From IMG/VR virus record IMGVR_UViG_3300028837_001967, positions 1 to 31,269 of that record: a stretch of 31,269 bases of DNA; one strand, written 5' to 3'. The stretch is from a virus. Below are positions 17,854 to 31,045 of this stretch, piece after piece. The notes beneath the pieces are model-generated. The model searched no databases. It saw nothing but the letters and a program-made list of their open reading frames with translations, and was not told where the DNA came from. Within the stretch, counting starts at the first letter, position 1. The number at the start of each line of letters is the position of its first letter. Made by a program: the position numbers and the translations under genes.

Positions 17854-18035
17854 CTTATTCTCCTCATTAAATTACTACGTGATACAATGACATATTCGCC
17901 ACTGTCAAGTTTGACCTCGATTTGATTTGATTCGTTTCCAACTATCACAATCGTACCAGTCCGCCAGTGCCGTTTGATGTCATTATTGCCGTAGTGCAAC
18001 ATCACCCGCACACCTGGTTTTGGATTAACTATCAT
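17850..18035 (-). CDS. Small SH3/KOW-like beta protein
   Basis: 61 residues from the ATG at 18035, which overlaps the previous stop (AAATGA) and has GAGGGA upstream. Alternating hydrophobic strands with PKPGVRVML and GTIVIVG look like a small SH3-like barrel (KOW or Tudor type), and the basic C-terminus could bind nucleic acid. A longer frame from 18071 is less likely, as it lies inside the preceding gene. Confidence 0.55.
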   Translation of the reverse strand: MIVNPKPGVRVMLHYGNNDIKRHWRTGTIVIVGNESNQIEVKLDSGEYVIVSRSNLMRRIR

Positions 18036-18874
18036 TTCGGATATTCCCTCACTCGTAAACCAGCATCCCAATAATCCATATTTGCACCGTTCGGATCATG
18101 CCTGTACACGCCATTTTCCTTCGCCCAGACTGTGCCAAGCTGTTTAACGAATTTCGGTACTCCCGCTTCAACGCATTGATCCCGCACAGACCGTACCCAA
18201 TCTGGATGTATTGGACGCGCTCCCGGACCCGATTCTCCGCCGACTATTACCCAGTTTATATTTTTTGCAATGTGTGACTCAATATCAATCCTCTCAAGCA
18301 ATGGTTCCATACTCACAAACCGCACGGCTGCCGGAATTTGTGATAATACCGCAATCCGCTCGTCTGCTGTTTTCTGATCTTCACCCGACACGCCGAGCCG
18401 GAGATTTTTTGGTAATTTTTCATCTTTCATTTTTTTAGCAATCGCTAATCCGAATGCGCTTGATCCTGTAGTTGTTTCAGCGGAATCACAAACATAACGC
18501 TTACTATCAATAACTTCGTCGAAATACTTTTTAGCTCTTTTAATTCGTTTTGTTAAAATTTGAAATATGTGATCTTGAAATAGATATATAACCGCCATTA
18601 CATTATCAATAAACCAAAATGGCACATCCTCATGGAAAAAATCACTCATGCTGCACACGAACACCATTCTCGGCTTTTTCCAATGCAGTGGTTCCTGGAG
18701 TCGCTCAGAATGTAACGTAACCCGAAACGGATCGTCTTTCGGATATCCGAATCGTCCCGCTAATCGCTTCGCCATCCGCTCGGCATAACAATTTCGGCAG
18801 CCTTCCGAAACTTTCGTACAGCCGGTTACAGGATTCCAGGACTCATCAGTCCACTCGATTTTTGTCTTTGCCAT
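18032..18874 (-). CDS. DUF5131 (phage Gp37/Gp68) three-Cys protein
   Basis: 280 residues. The N-terminus carries the family's signature GCTKVSEGCRNCYAERM (C19, C26, C29), a three-Cys motif like that of radical-SAM-related proteins, within EWTDESWNPVTGC. Later conserved parts include CSMSDFFHEDVP, QILTKR, VGGESGPGARP and a C-terminal VKQLG. Many phages carry it; the reaction is not settled, though DNA-directed or SAM-dependent chemistry has been suggested. Start has GGAG. The partner protein that sometimes accompanies it (TcmP) is not seen here. Confidence 0.85.
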   Translation of the reverse strand: MAKTKIEWTDESWNPVTGCTKVSEGCRNCYAERMAKRLAGRFGYPKDDPFRVTLHSERLQEPLHWKKPRMVFVCSMSDFFHEDVPFWFIDNVMAVIYLFQDHIFQILTKRIKRAKKYFDEVIDSKRYVCDSAETTTGSSAFGLAIAKKMKDEKLPKNLRLGVSGEDQKTADERIAVLSQIPAAVRFVSMEPLLERIDIESHIAKNINWVIVGGESGPGARPIHPDWVRSVRDQCVEAGVPKFVKQLGTVWAKENGVYRHDPNGANMDYWDAGLRVREYPK

Positions 18875-27614: not shown

Positions 27615-28654
27615 TGTGTAGTCTCCTGTTCTTTTATTCTAAACATATCTTCGCTTATGTAATCGTCATTCTCACAAATAGGCAGAAAATCACAGGCCGT
27701 TCCGTAAGCAAAACAACCGGTTTCCTGTTGATAAAAAGAATCTGCACCAAGCTCTTCAAGGAATTTGATCTCAGTAACGATTATTTTATACCGCTCCTTT
27801 AATCTTTCAATATTGAAATCATCACGTAGAAACACTTTGCCGAATGCTCCTTTGTCCCGGTCTAATCCGATAAAGTAATGTGAAGGACGAGTGCAAATGT
27901 CCTTAAAAACTCTATTTTCAAATTCTTCCGCATTTTCATTTTTCTTTACTTTCAATTTCGGTGTCTGCGCAACTTCCATAATAACATATTCGAGGTTGCT
28001 GTCTAATAAAAAATATGTACCCACCTGCGGGGTTACTCCCCAGACATTAAGGTATGACATGGGACGGCTGGATAATTTGGATTCTACAAAAAAGTTATCA
28101 TCATAAAGACGATCTATAATTCCTTTTACTGTACAATCCTCTGCTATTTGTTTTTGTAATTCCACCTGACAATCGCAGGAATAATCAGGATCAATAAATT
28201 TCTTATGAGACTTAAAAAGCGCAGAGACTTTAGCAACATCGAATTCGTCTATTTCATATTCATTTATTAGTTCATTAATTAACTGGAAATCCATTTCCTG
28301 ATATACATACTGTTGATATAAATCCCAGAGTGCGCCCATTTTTAAGGGCTTACCCAGTTGTTCAGGTCGGCGTTTAATATCCATAATGTGCTTGAGATAA
28401 TATAAACGCCGGCAGATGTTCCAGTCTCTGACCTGACTATTGCTTATGTGTGGTTTCAATTTATCAATCCTTTCGATACACCTGAAATATGATTGTAATT
28501 TGCAAAATCCGATTTTATCATTTTTATCTTTAATATTGCAGATCCAGTGTTGACAGAATTTTCCTGAATATTTCTGATACCTGGGACAATAATAATTACC
28601 TGGTTTTAAGGTTGTTGATTGCTGTTCTGACATGAACTGTCTTGGTTTTTTCAA
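27611..28654 (-). CDS. PD-(D/E)XK nuclease, Cas4/RecB-like
   Basis: 347 residues. CRRLYYLKH (C81), GIIDRL (D181), FVESK (E191, K193) and QVGTYFLL (Q210) are the core of a PDDEXK_1/Cas4-like exonuclease; three Cys near the C-terminus (GCFAYGTACDFLPIC) with C81 could hold an Fe-S cluster. The N-terminal 60 residues contain six more Cys. It would resect DNA ends for annealing by the neighbouring ATPase. There is no CRISPR array or other Cas gene here. An in-frame ATG at residue 8 could be the true start. Confidence 0.75.
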   Translation of the reverse strand: MKKPRQFMSEQQSTTLKPGNYYCPRYQKYSGKFCQHWICNIKDKNDKIGFCKLQSYFRCIERIDKLKPHISNSQVRDWNICRRLYYLKHIMDIKRRPEQLGKPLKMGALWDLYQQYVYQEMDFQLINELINEYEIDEFDVAKVSALFKSHKKFIDPDYSCDCQVELQKQIAEDCTVKGIIDRLYDDNFFVESKLSSRPMSYLNVWGVTPQVGTYFLLDSNLEYVIMEVAQTPKLKVKKNENAEEFENRVFKDICTRPSHYFIGLDRDKGAFGKVFLRDDFNIERLKERYKIIVTEIKFLEELGADSFYQQETGCFAYGTACDFLPICENDDYISEDMFRIKEQETTQ

Positions 28655-28841
28655 CGATATACTGATTAATTTCGTCTTTAGGAAATTGAATGAATTTACC
28701 CAACTTGGTAAACGGAATTTGCTCTTTTGCTGTTAATACGGATAAATAACTGTCAGAAATATTCAGCAGTTTGCAGACTTGATCCCGGGTGTAGAAATTA
28801 TCCGGGTTGTTATAAAAGGCGCTTTCGTCAAGACTTAACAT
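28596..28841 (-). CDS. xis: Excisionase-like HTH protein
   Basis: 81 residues. YTRDQVCKLLNISDSYLSVL, then FTKLGKFIQFPKDEINQYI is the MerR-like winged helix of the HTH_17/AlpA/excisionase type. It begins inside the integrase stop (ATGTTAA) and overlaps the nuclease start. Position beside the integrase suggests recombination directionality factor; a repressor role is also possible. Confidence 0.7.
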   Translation of the reverse strand: MLSLDESAFYNNPDNFYTRDQVCKLLNISDSYLSVLTAKEQIPFTKLGKFIQFPKDEINQYIVEKTKTVHVRTAINNLKTR

Positions 28842-29602
28842 ATATTGTCCTCGAACTTTTTAATTGCGTCAAATTTATGTTTATGAGTAGTATGTATATA
28901 TTTCATTGTTGTTTTAATATCGGAATGGCCCATAAGCTCTTGGACCACTGGCAGGGGAATTTTAAGATCGTTTACGAGGTAACTGCAAAAAGAGTGACGC
29001 AAAAAGTGGACACCCTTTTTGACATTGTTAGGGATTTTATCGTAGATCCCAGTGCGTTTGAATAAATTGTTAATACTTTTGTGAAAATGATAGGCTTTAT
29101 GCCCGTTTGTGCTTGTAAAAATGAACACTTGACCAGAAGTCATATGGTTTATTTTCTTTTTGAGAAGCTTGCGAATTATGTTGTCAATAGGGATAACCCT
29201 GCTTTTGTTGTTCTTAGGTCCCCAGTCCTCGTGGGGCTGAATAAATATCAGGTTCTCTTTTAAATCAATATCTTCGGGACGTAGATTTGAAAGCTCTGCT
29301 TTTCGCATTCCAGTGTGATATAATATCGTGATGATCTCACCTAAATATTCAGAGCAGTTATTAATCAATGTAGCAATATCTGCAGGACGGAGAAAATAAG
29401 ATGAAGTATAGTTAGTCTGGATGACTGGTTTACTTAGCTTGTTAATTTTATTTGAGTTAGCAAATCTGTATTTAATGGCATAATTGTATATCTTGCCGAA
29501 TGCGATGTGTTCATGACGTAAAGTAGAAATGGAAATTCTGTCTTGAACTCGGCGTTTGTAAAAGTAATGTTCCAAAGTCTCAATGGAAATCTGCGATAAC
29601 AT
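28835..29602 (-). CDS. int: Tyrosine integrase, N-terminally truncated frame
   Basis: 255 residues from the first ATG. Catalytic residues are all present: R100 (TGMRKAEL), K133, H199 and R202 (VHFLRHSF), H226 (MGHSDI) and Y235 (MKYIH). So the catalytic domain is intact. The frame stays open for 21 codons upstream of the ATG and reads like the first helix of a core-binding domain (STYAYYG...LGNR) before an in-frame TAA at 29666-29668. Normal integrases are 300-400 residues. It would recombine attP with a host tRNA gene. Confidence 0.85.
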   Translation of the reverse strand: MLSQISIETLEHYFYKRRVQDRISISTLRHEHIAFGKIYNYAIKYRFANSNKINKLSKPVIQTNYTSSYFLRPADIATLINNCSEYLGEIITILYHTGMRKAELSNLRPEDIDLKENLIFIQPHEDWGPKNNKSRVIPIDNIIRKLLKKKINHMTSGQVFIFTSTNGHKAYHFHKSINNLFKRTGIYDKIPNNVKKGVHFLRHSFCSYLVNDLKIPLPVVQELMGHSDIKTTMKYIHTTHKHKFDAIKKFEDNIC

Positions 29603-29665
29603 GCGATTACCTAAATGTTGAGCAATCCGGGCAAGCCGGAAGCCGTAATAGGCGTAGGTGCTTGG

Positions 29666-29809
29666 TTAGATTGCGCCTTGATCTACCTTTCGTTGCAGAT
29701 CAGAAAGCACTCTGTCAATGAGGTCGGATAGTAGAATATCCTCAGTAGCGATTAGTTTTTGTTTCAATTTCTCAAGCACCTTAATAGTATTTAGATTATC
29801 ATCGTTCAT
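29666..29809 (-). pseudogene. Detached N-terminus of integrase
   Basis: 47 codons in the same frame as the integrase, ending at TAA 29666-29668. CGGAGT lies 6 nt before the ATG, better than any site near 29602. Content (LSDLIDRVLSDLQRKVDQ) resembles the N-terminal helix that precedes the core-binding domain. Joined, the parts are about 324 codons. Explanations: a nonsense mutation, readthrough of TAA, or an independent small gene; the phage's other genes end normally at TAA. Confidence 0.6.
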
Positions 29810-29953
29810 AGTAGACTCCGATATAAATAGCAAAAAGGATTATGAGTAGTAGGATAGAAAAATAGGGGTGATAAGCGTATATTAAATATATCGGAGCGTG
29901 TTCTCCAATGTTTATTTTTTTTTTAGTTAAGGGCTGTTGTTTTTGTTGTGCAT
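29799..29953 (-). other. Possible frameshifted small membrane ORF
   Basis: ATG 29951-29953 has AGGAG upstream but stops after eight codons. In the -1 frame the reading stays open to 29799 and encodes an Ile/Leu/Tyr-rich membrane segment (SILLLIILFAIYIGVYYE) ending within the start of the integrase N-terminal frame. A CAAAAAC shift site lies in the short overlap. No ordinary start exists in the long frame, so this is either a frameshift product or chance. Confidence 0.3.
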
Positions 29954-29967
29954 TGAGTCTCCTGAAT

Positions 29968-30000
29968 AAAAAAAGCGAATTAGATTTTAGTCTAACTCGC
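29968..30000 (-). terminator. Intrinsic terminator between attP and integrase
   Basis: On the minus strand GCGAGTTAGA pairs with TCTAATTCGC (10 bp with one G-U) around a 6-nt loop, and seven T follow at once. Its place before the integrase makes it an attenuator of transcription coming through attP. Confidence 0.8.
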
Positions 30001-30110
30001 TCTGAAATAAGCTCTCCTGACTGCTTGACTGGCAGTCAAGAGGTCGTCGGTTCGAACCCGTCCAGCTCCACAATTCAATAGTGGAACGTTAGGGAAACTT
30101 GCGAGTTAGA
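29975..30110. repeat. Three 10-bp GCGARTTAGA copies around attP
   Basis: Copies at 29975-29984 (GCGAATTAGA), 29991-30000 (inverted) and 30101-30110 (GCGAGTTAGA). The first two make the terminator; the third lies across attP and pairs perfectly with the second. They could be antiterminator parts or integrase arm-type sites. Confidence 0.7.
30024..30070 (+). other. attP: attP core: 3' half of tRNA-Ala(GGC)
   Basis: CTTGA-CTGGCAG-TCAAG is an anticodon arm with anticodon GGC. A 5-nt variable loop, a T-arm (GTCGG, TTCGAAC, CCGTC, one mismatch), CAGCTCC with U70 (the partner of alanine's G3) and A73 follow. No 5' acceptor or D-arm precedes it, so it is not a whole tRNA gene. Such 3' halves beside an integrase are typical attachment cores in which the phage restores the disrupted host tRNA. 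Confidence 0.8.
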
Positions 30111-30137
30111 TAGAAAAGAACATTAAGTAACATAAAT

Positions 30138-30166
30138 AAAGTACAAATAATATCGATTAATGTCAA
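30138..30166 (-). promoter_or_regulatory. Promoter reading through attP to integrase
   Basis: On the minus strand TTGACA (30161-30166) is a perfect -35, with TACTTT (30138-30143) after exactly 17 bp; the -10 is only a partial match. It points leftward through attP and the terminator into the integrase and the early operon. Confidence 0.45.
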
Positions 30167-30178
30167 GTATTATTTAGA

Positions 30179-30409
30179 TTATTTTCTGCTTTTTCTTTTT
30201 CGATAAGATTTATTAAAGACGTGTAACCCAAGTTTGTAAAGACGTGCATGTAAAGCGCTTTGTGATCGTTTTATTTCTGATTGCTGATTAAATGGGTCGA
30301 CAATAGATTCGGCGACAATTTTTATACAAGCGTTGCCAAGTATAGTATAGTGTTCAAACAGTGTCACGAGTAAATTGTCATCTGCTTTTGACCATTTTAA
30401 CTTTTTCAT
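30179..30409 (-). CDS. Small SANT/Myb-like protein
   Basis: 76 residues. WSKADDNLLVTLFEHY and SQSALHARLYKLG follow the W-x-x-x-(E/D)-D...L and S-x-x-A-x-x-x-R-L-x-x-L-G spacing of small SANT/Myb-like phage DNA-binding proteins; the tail is strongly basic. AAGGA precedes the start. It lies on the far side of attP from the integrase. Confidence 0.6.
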   Translation of the reverse strand: MKKLKWSKADDNLLVTLFEHYTILGNACIKIVAESIVDPFNQQSEIKRSQSALHARLYKLGLHVFNKSYRKRKSRK

Positions 30410-30426
30410 AAAAGTTTCCTTAGTAA

Positions 30427-30597
30427 ATGAAAAGAAAAATTAAATTATATTTATGTAGTGTATGGAACACTTTTACTGGTAAAAACCATGATCCAGAGTT
30501 TTATTCAGAGTACCCGGTGAGTCCGTTCTTTGCGTTCTGGTTTATGGTAATAGTATGTGTAATTGCTATCGTTATTGAGTTGATTTTGAAAATTTAA
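30427..30597 (+). CDS. Possible small membrane protein
   Basis: A 56-residue frame with a basic N-terminus and a C-terminal membrane segment (about residues 35-54, FFAFWFMVIVCVIAIVIELI). No ribosome site is visible, and it is divergent from its neighbour with only 17 bp between starts. Protein content looks real, the signals do not; kept at low confidence. Confidence 0.4.
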   Translation: MKRKIKLYLCSVWNTFTGKNHDPEFYSEYPVSPFFAFWFMVIVCVIAIVIELILKI

Positions 30598-30859: not shown

Positions 30860-31045
30860 TCACGCCTCGCTTTCAATTTCTTCGATCGTCCATATTATAC
30901 GGGGGCAACCGAATGGGTATTGTGGTGATCCATCCCCGTCAATTGACAATCCCCAAATGCGCTTATTGCCGCCAAGAGACTCAACTACCAGCTCGGCTTT
31001 ACCAACATGGGTTTTGCCGCGCTCTTTCAGGAGCTTTTTTGCCAT
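30860..31045 (-). CDS. Small hypothetical protein
   Basis: 61 residues, GAGGC before the ATG. Basic N-terminus (KKLLKERGK), then GKAELVVESLGG and a Pro/Gly/Trp-rich C-terminus. Unknown family. Its stop is followed one base later by the next start. Confidence 0.5.
   Translation of the reverse strand: MAKKLLKERGKTHVGKAELVVESLGGNKRIWGLSIDGDGSPQYPFGCPRIIWTIEEIESEA

Follow-up and report, generated by a model that had tools for sequence, protein, structure and literature searches.

A tRNA-Ala(GGC) attachment site and integrase control region in a viral genome, with a candidate antiterminator across attP

The largest non-coding gap in a 31,269-base IMG/VR virus record, 369 bp at positions 29810–30178 of the stretch analysed here at its full length (the window), holds an attachment site (attP) that includes the 3′ half of a tRNA-Ala(GGC). 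An intrinsic terminator is predicted between attP and the integrase gene (int), and on the other side of attP lies a 10-nt segment perfectly complementary to the 5′ arm of that terminator. The best explanation at hand, which we put forward tentatively and regard as possible rather than probable, is that a temperate phage which integrates at tRNA-Ala(GGC) has here its attP together with the sequences that control its integrase, such that int would lose both an antiterminator and right-hand transcription upon integration.

The window is linear and carries no end repeats. Structural genes, the terminase among them, occupy about 1.4–17.6 kb and point rightward, and from 17.6 kb to the right end the early genes point leftward; a DUF5131 protein is encoded at 18032–18874 (Pfam, 3.1e-85). 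Positions 1–1440 contain no convincing genes and gave no Rfam match, and their G+C content reaches 55% compared with 37% overall, so that this left end is possibly chimeric or foreign DNA. Searches for relatives returned little. The integrase query yielded distant matches only, none with the attP–int region; the terminase search of IMG/VR recovered a single near-identical fragment of 9.3 kb that ends short of attP; the other early genes found no relatives as queries; and the comparison of 29600–30450 with phages and plasmids revealed similarity essentially to tRNA only. None of these searches found a relative with the attP–int region.

Attachment site, terminator and integrase gene

The attP core occupies 30014–30042 on the plus strand and reads CTCCTGACTGC-TTGACTG-GCAGTCAAGAG, an 11-7-11 layout in which two inverted arms of 11 bp each (30014–30024 and 30032–30042), matching at 10 of 11 positions, surround the 7-bp overlap TTGACTG (30025–30031). 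The tRNA-Ala(GGC) 3′ half, recognized by pattern matches and in-silico joining, spans 30025–30070 on the plus strand. With generic host 5′ halves fused to these 46 nt in silico, ARAGORN reports tRNA-Ala(ggc) with one mismatch in the T-stem, and the same stretch shows 3–9 differences from genomic tRNA stretches that fit a degenerate pattern. Similarity to genomic tRNA begins at, or no more than about 2 bases from, the left edge of the spacer, as expected of an overlap region. Inverted arms, an overlap of 6–8 bp and a restorable tRNA 3′ half, which together characterize the attP of a tRNA-targeting tyrosine recombinase, are thus all present, and the recombinase core and tRNA half bear out the attP that the initial annotation had placed here. 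Tracing the host by the same route was set aside: the exact core, as a query against the genome and viral collections, had no exact match that could serve as attB, and the degenerate pattern matched 112 stretches spread across many phyla. The frequent Shine-Dalgarno sites argue against a Bacteroidota host.

Between attP and int, at 29972–30003 on the minus strand, lies the predicted intrinsic terminator, AGAGCGAGTTAGA-CTAAAA-TCTAATTCGCTTT followed by a U-tract. With 13 pairs, a predicted energy of −15.7 kcal/mol and a folding z of −5.25, equalled by none of 200 shuffles, the hairpin substantiates the terminator proposed earlier. The reading is further supported by a phage contig (L201:4353–4630) that holds two near-identical terminators 240 bp apart, each with a T-tract and a stem nearly the same as that in the window. 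L201 was also considered as a relative of the window and rejected as such: the hairpin pattern matches without protein similarity, marking a recurrent terminator sequence.

The tyrosine integrase frame (28835–29809, minus strand) matches the Phage_integrase domain at 2.6e-27, and inspection finds the catalytic motif residues in place. The intact tyrosine integrase gene that would be expected next to an attP of this class is interrupted by an in-frame TAA at 29668–29670 (codon 48). This codon falls inside the match to a SAM-like core-binding domain, which starts at residue 38 with no arm-binding domain ahead of it, and a restart at 29602 would lose the beginning of the core-binding domain. Full-length integrase is probably not made owing to this stop, and the switch considered below may therefore be decaying in this genome. 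The stop lies within AATCTAA, which belongs to the repeated TTAGATT motifs of the window. Downstream of int, at 28596–28841 on the minus strand, an HTH_17 protein resembles an excisionase or regulator.

The int leader contains two further elements. Within 29953–29799 on the minus strand, a strong Shine-Dalgarno sequence and ATG open an ORF of 8 codons; by inspection, the addition of one base after that ATG would produce a membrane-like frame of 51 aa that overlaps the start of int. The in-frame TAA and this closed upstream frame reflect either a decaying module or consensus errors. A perfect 10-bp inverted repeat, CTCCGATATA/TATATCGGAG, spans 29816–29896 on the minus strand (arms 29896–29887 and 29825–29816), and its 3′ arm includes the int Shine-Dalgarno GGAG. 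Masking of this site is possible in a long transcript and impossible in one that starts near 29878. As a control element the repeat was set aside: the arms pair in the minimum-free-energy fold, but overall folding is no better than that of shuffles.

Transcription across attP and the effect of integration

The initial annotation proposed a TTGACA promoter to the right of attP that reads through it into int. The hexamer is indeed there, at 30166–30161 on the minus strand, although its score lies within chance (p ~0.18). The best-spaced −10 element, 17 nt away, is TACTTT (30143–30138), with 3 of 6 consensus matches, giving a candidate promoter at 30138–30166. A consensus promoter scan does not list the site; a position-weight score, computed with E. 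coli frequencies, ranks it 51 of 62,458 positions. Sites as good are expected 0.22 times per 369 nt, 18% of shuffles contain one, and two leftward sites score higher within the 76-aa ORF that is the final gene before attP on the right (30367–30339 and 30240–30212). On paper, the TTGACA promoter is weak. The right-hand genes lie on the same strand, and a terminator scan found none among them before attP, so transcription could cross attP even without this promoter. On the other side, a weak candidate int promoter, TAAACA-18-TATATT at 29914–29885 on the minus strand (rank 227), is no better than chance either; it would remain with int in the prophage.

Whatever crosses attP from the right meets the terminator at 29972–30003, which is strong enough to bar simple read-through into int, contrary to what had been proposed. 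The initial annotation lists the terminator but leaves the passage of int transcription through it unexplained, and a possible way past it is offered by a segment absent from that account. The sequence TCTAACTCGC, at 30101–30110 on the minus strand, sits to the right of attP, opposite the terminator, and complements the terminator 5′ arm at all 10 positions; its role as an antiterminator across attP remains a prediction. In the folding of lengthening transcripts, the antiterminator pairing keeps a probability of ~0.98 up to the emergence of the final bases of the terminator 3′ arm. The completed terminator is favoured over the antiterminator by ~3 kcal/mol in the folding model, and read-through would thus hinge on kinetics.

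Several statistics in favour of this pairing were computed after the match had been noticed, and are for that reason suggestive only. An exact 10-nt complement occurs in ~0.07% of simulated 200-nt upstream sequences, and 1 of 500 shuffles equals the degree to which the right-hand segment occupies the terminator 5′ arm. Among 88 terminator-like hairpins in the sequences compared, an upstream exact complement of at least 8 nt was found only for the window terminator and the duplicated pair in L201. Against the pairing, among 55 distant int loci a terminator stands upstream of int in 8, and such a complement in none. L201 shows that a duplicated terminator can yield the same complement signature. 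TCTAACTCGC may be a decayed terminator copy; alternatively, the 10-nt match may belong to a repeat that is bound by protein.

The topology of integration follows from the core. Recombination within the overlap at 30025–30031 joins the right side to the host tRNA and places the terminator and int at the opposite prophage end. The initial annotation was correct that integration carries a right-hand promoter to the other prophage end: any such promoter loses int. Its further proposal, that integration would silence int and the downstream nucleases at once, leaves no obvious route to excision if the silencing is complete. If both int and the HTH_17 gene were fully silenced, excision would be blocked, and a left promoter is therefore required in the prophage. 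Furthermore, a right-hand promoter would after integration read antisense into the tRNA gene, and would thus have to be weak or repressed in a lysogen.

Taken together, the favoured mechanism would operate as follows. While the genome is a free circle, transcripts that run leftward from TTGACA or from genes upstream of it would cross attP, and TCTAACTCGC in the nascent RNA would pair with the terminator 5′ arm, such that the polymerase may pass into the int leader. Upon integration, promoter and antiterminator segment would shift together to the restored tRNA, and the terminator, remaining next to int at the opposite end, would shield it from host read-through. Expression of int in the prophage would then require a separate left promoter. 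Of these elements, the attP anatomy, the predicted terminator, its exact complement and the topology can be read from the sequence; promoter activity, antitermination and silencing are inferred.

Alternative readings of the region

The same features accommodate more conventional arrangements. A doubtful but serious contender is an ordinary attP and int region, where int is driven by its own left promoter (e.g., 29914–29885) or by the leftward operon, the terminator merely insulates int against transcription from upstream or from the host, TTGACA is there by chance and the 10-nt match is incidental. A TTGACA-like site is expected 0.22 times by chance, a left promoter candidate exists, the gap at 29810–30178 is no more than the largest non-coding one, and the match may be the decayed half of a duplicated terminator of the kind seen in L201. 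An exact 10-nt complement to a terminator arm is, however, unlikely by chance, and the left promoter invoked in its stead (rank 227) itself does no better than chance. Less probable still, and in our estimation unlikely, is that the GCGARTTAGAT/TTAGATT repeats are DNA-binding sites around attP, either integrase arm-type sites or sites for the HTH_17 protein or a recombination directionality factor (RDF), with the hairpin a secondary consequence. Their distribution is suggestive: GCGARTTAGA occurs in the window only at 29975 and 30101 on the plus strand and 29991 on the minus strand, thereby flanking attP on both sides; 4 of the 9 TTAGATT copies in the window fall within 29666–30180 in one orientation; and the excisionase-like HTH_17 gene downstream of int supplies a candidate binder. 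Yet an integrase without an arm-binding domain, whose core-binding match starts as early as residue 38, weakens the arm-site version, and the left repeat pair is embedded in a hairpin followed by TTTTTTT, a near-identical T-tract hairpin being present twice in L201.

A further reading, which we consider improbable, takes the site for an attR junction: the prophage would be integrated and decaying, and host DNA would lie to the right of the site. The T-stem mismatch and the stop codon in int suggest decay, and the linear contig lacks end repeats. In the right flank, however, small ORFs with Shine-Dalgarno sites follow closely upon one another in leftward orientation, the 76-aa ORF (30179–30409, minus strand) lying nearest to attP; the composition matches phage, and motifs are shared by both sides of the core. 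A 61-aa ORF in this flank (30860–31045, minus strand) has a relative of 60% identity in a 105-kb IMG/VR viral contig (L120:6001–6153), where it lies beside a ligase-like gene; this is a sign that the flank is viral. Both flanks of the site look viral, and the site is read as attP rather than as a prophage–host junction on that account.

Comparison with known systems

Control of an integrase by an RNA element that integration detaches from it is familiar from phage lambda, where int retroregulation depends on sib, an RNA element separated from int by integration at attP. The sib element lies downstream of int and acts via RNase III-mediated decay rather than upstream termination. On the favoured reading, the window would share with lambda an RNA element split from int at attP, and would differ in that its element acts through upstream termination. 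In mycobacteriophage BPs, the coupling reportedly acts on the repressor, with attP inside the repressor gene; the window attP lies instead in the non-coding gap at 29810–30178. In BPs, as proposed here, gene control is tied to integration through the place of attP (PMC4557955). The prophage KplE1 resembles the window in that the int 5′ end lies beside the tRNA att site and control depends on the orientation of int relative to att; it differs in that the intS promoter overlaps attL, that intS is negatively autoregulated and that int is adjacent to the tRNA (PMC2951348); integrases of the KplE1/InTr type are characterized by repression of this promoter by Int and RDF.

The closest parallels come from integrative and conjugative elements (ICEs), and the initial annotation's impression that the arrangement was unfamiliar does not hold: it had been described in ICEclc (Pcirc) and in ICEKp1/ICEEc1 (P3′end). 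Pcirc of ICEclc is a constitutive, outward-facing promoter that circularization brings to int across att (PMC2892462 and PMC9286271, via PMC13023037), and that element targets tRNA-Gly with int adjoining the tRNA, whereas the window targets tRNA-Ala(GGC) with int at the opposite end. In ICEKp1 and ICEEc1, the 3′-end promoter (P3′end) crosses attP into int only in the circle, and terminator-like stem-loops stand in the int leader; ICEKp1 further has, across att, a 15-bp element that relieves the terminator, pairing with the stem-loop having been proposed as the means (PMC13023037). The ICEKp1 order of promoter, attP, leader terminator and int is that of the parts predicted in the window, and the terminator-like stem-loop in the int leader that attends switching of the ICEclc/ICEKp1 type is found here as well.

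The differences are equally instructive. ICEKp1 and ICEEc1 are ICEs and the window is a phage; promoter and terminator relief have been measured in the former and are only predicted in the latter. Upon integration, ICEKp1/ICEEc1 int adjoins the tRNA and is transcribed from the promoter of the tRNA, whereas the window int would come to rest at the prophage end that lacks the tRNA 5′ half; the window does not share the position of int next to the tRNA seen in integrated ICEclc and ICEKp1. In its strictest form, the proposal is that of a phage RNA switch split by attP, in which only the circle makes an int read-through RNA and int lies at the prophage end opposite that of ICEKp1; in this form it is rather unlikely. 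Were it true, the way in which RNA folds across the recombination site would tell the phage whether it is circle or prophage, without any need for a regulator protein; what has hitherto been proposed for ICEs would then also operate in phages, albeit in another geometry. By analogy, the predicted arrangement closely matches the known idea of state-dependent int control in ICEKp1 and ICEclc, of which it would be a phage variant.
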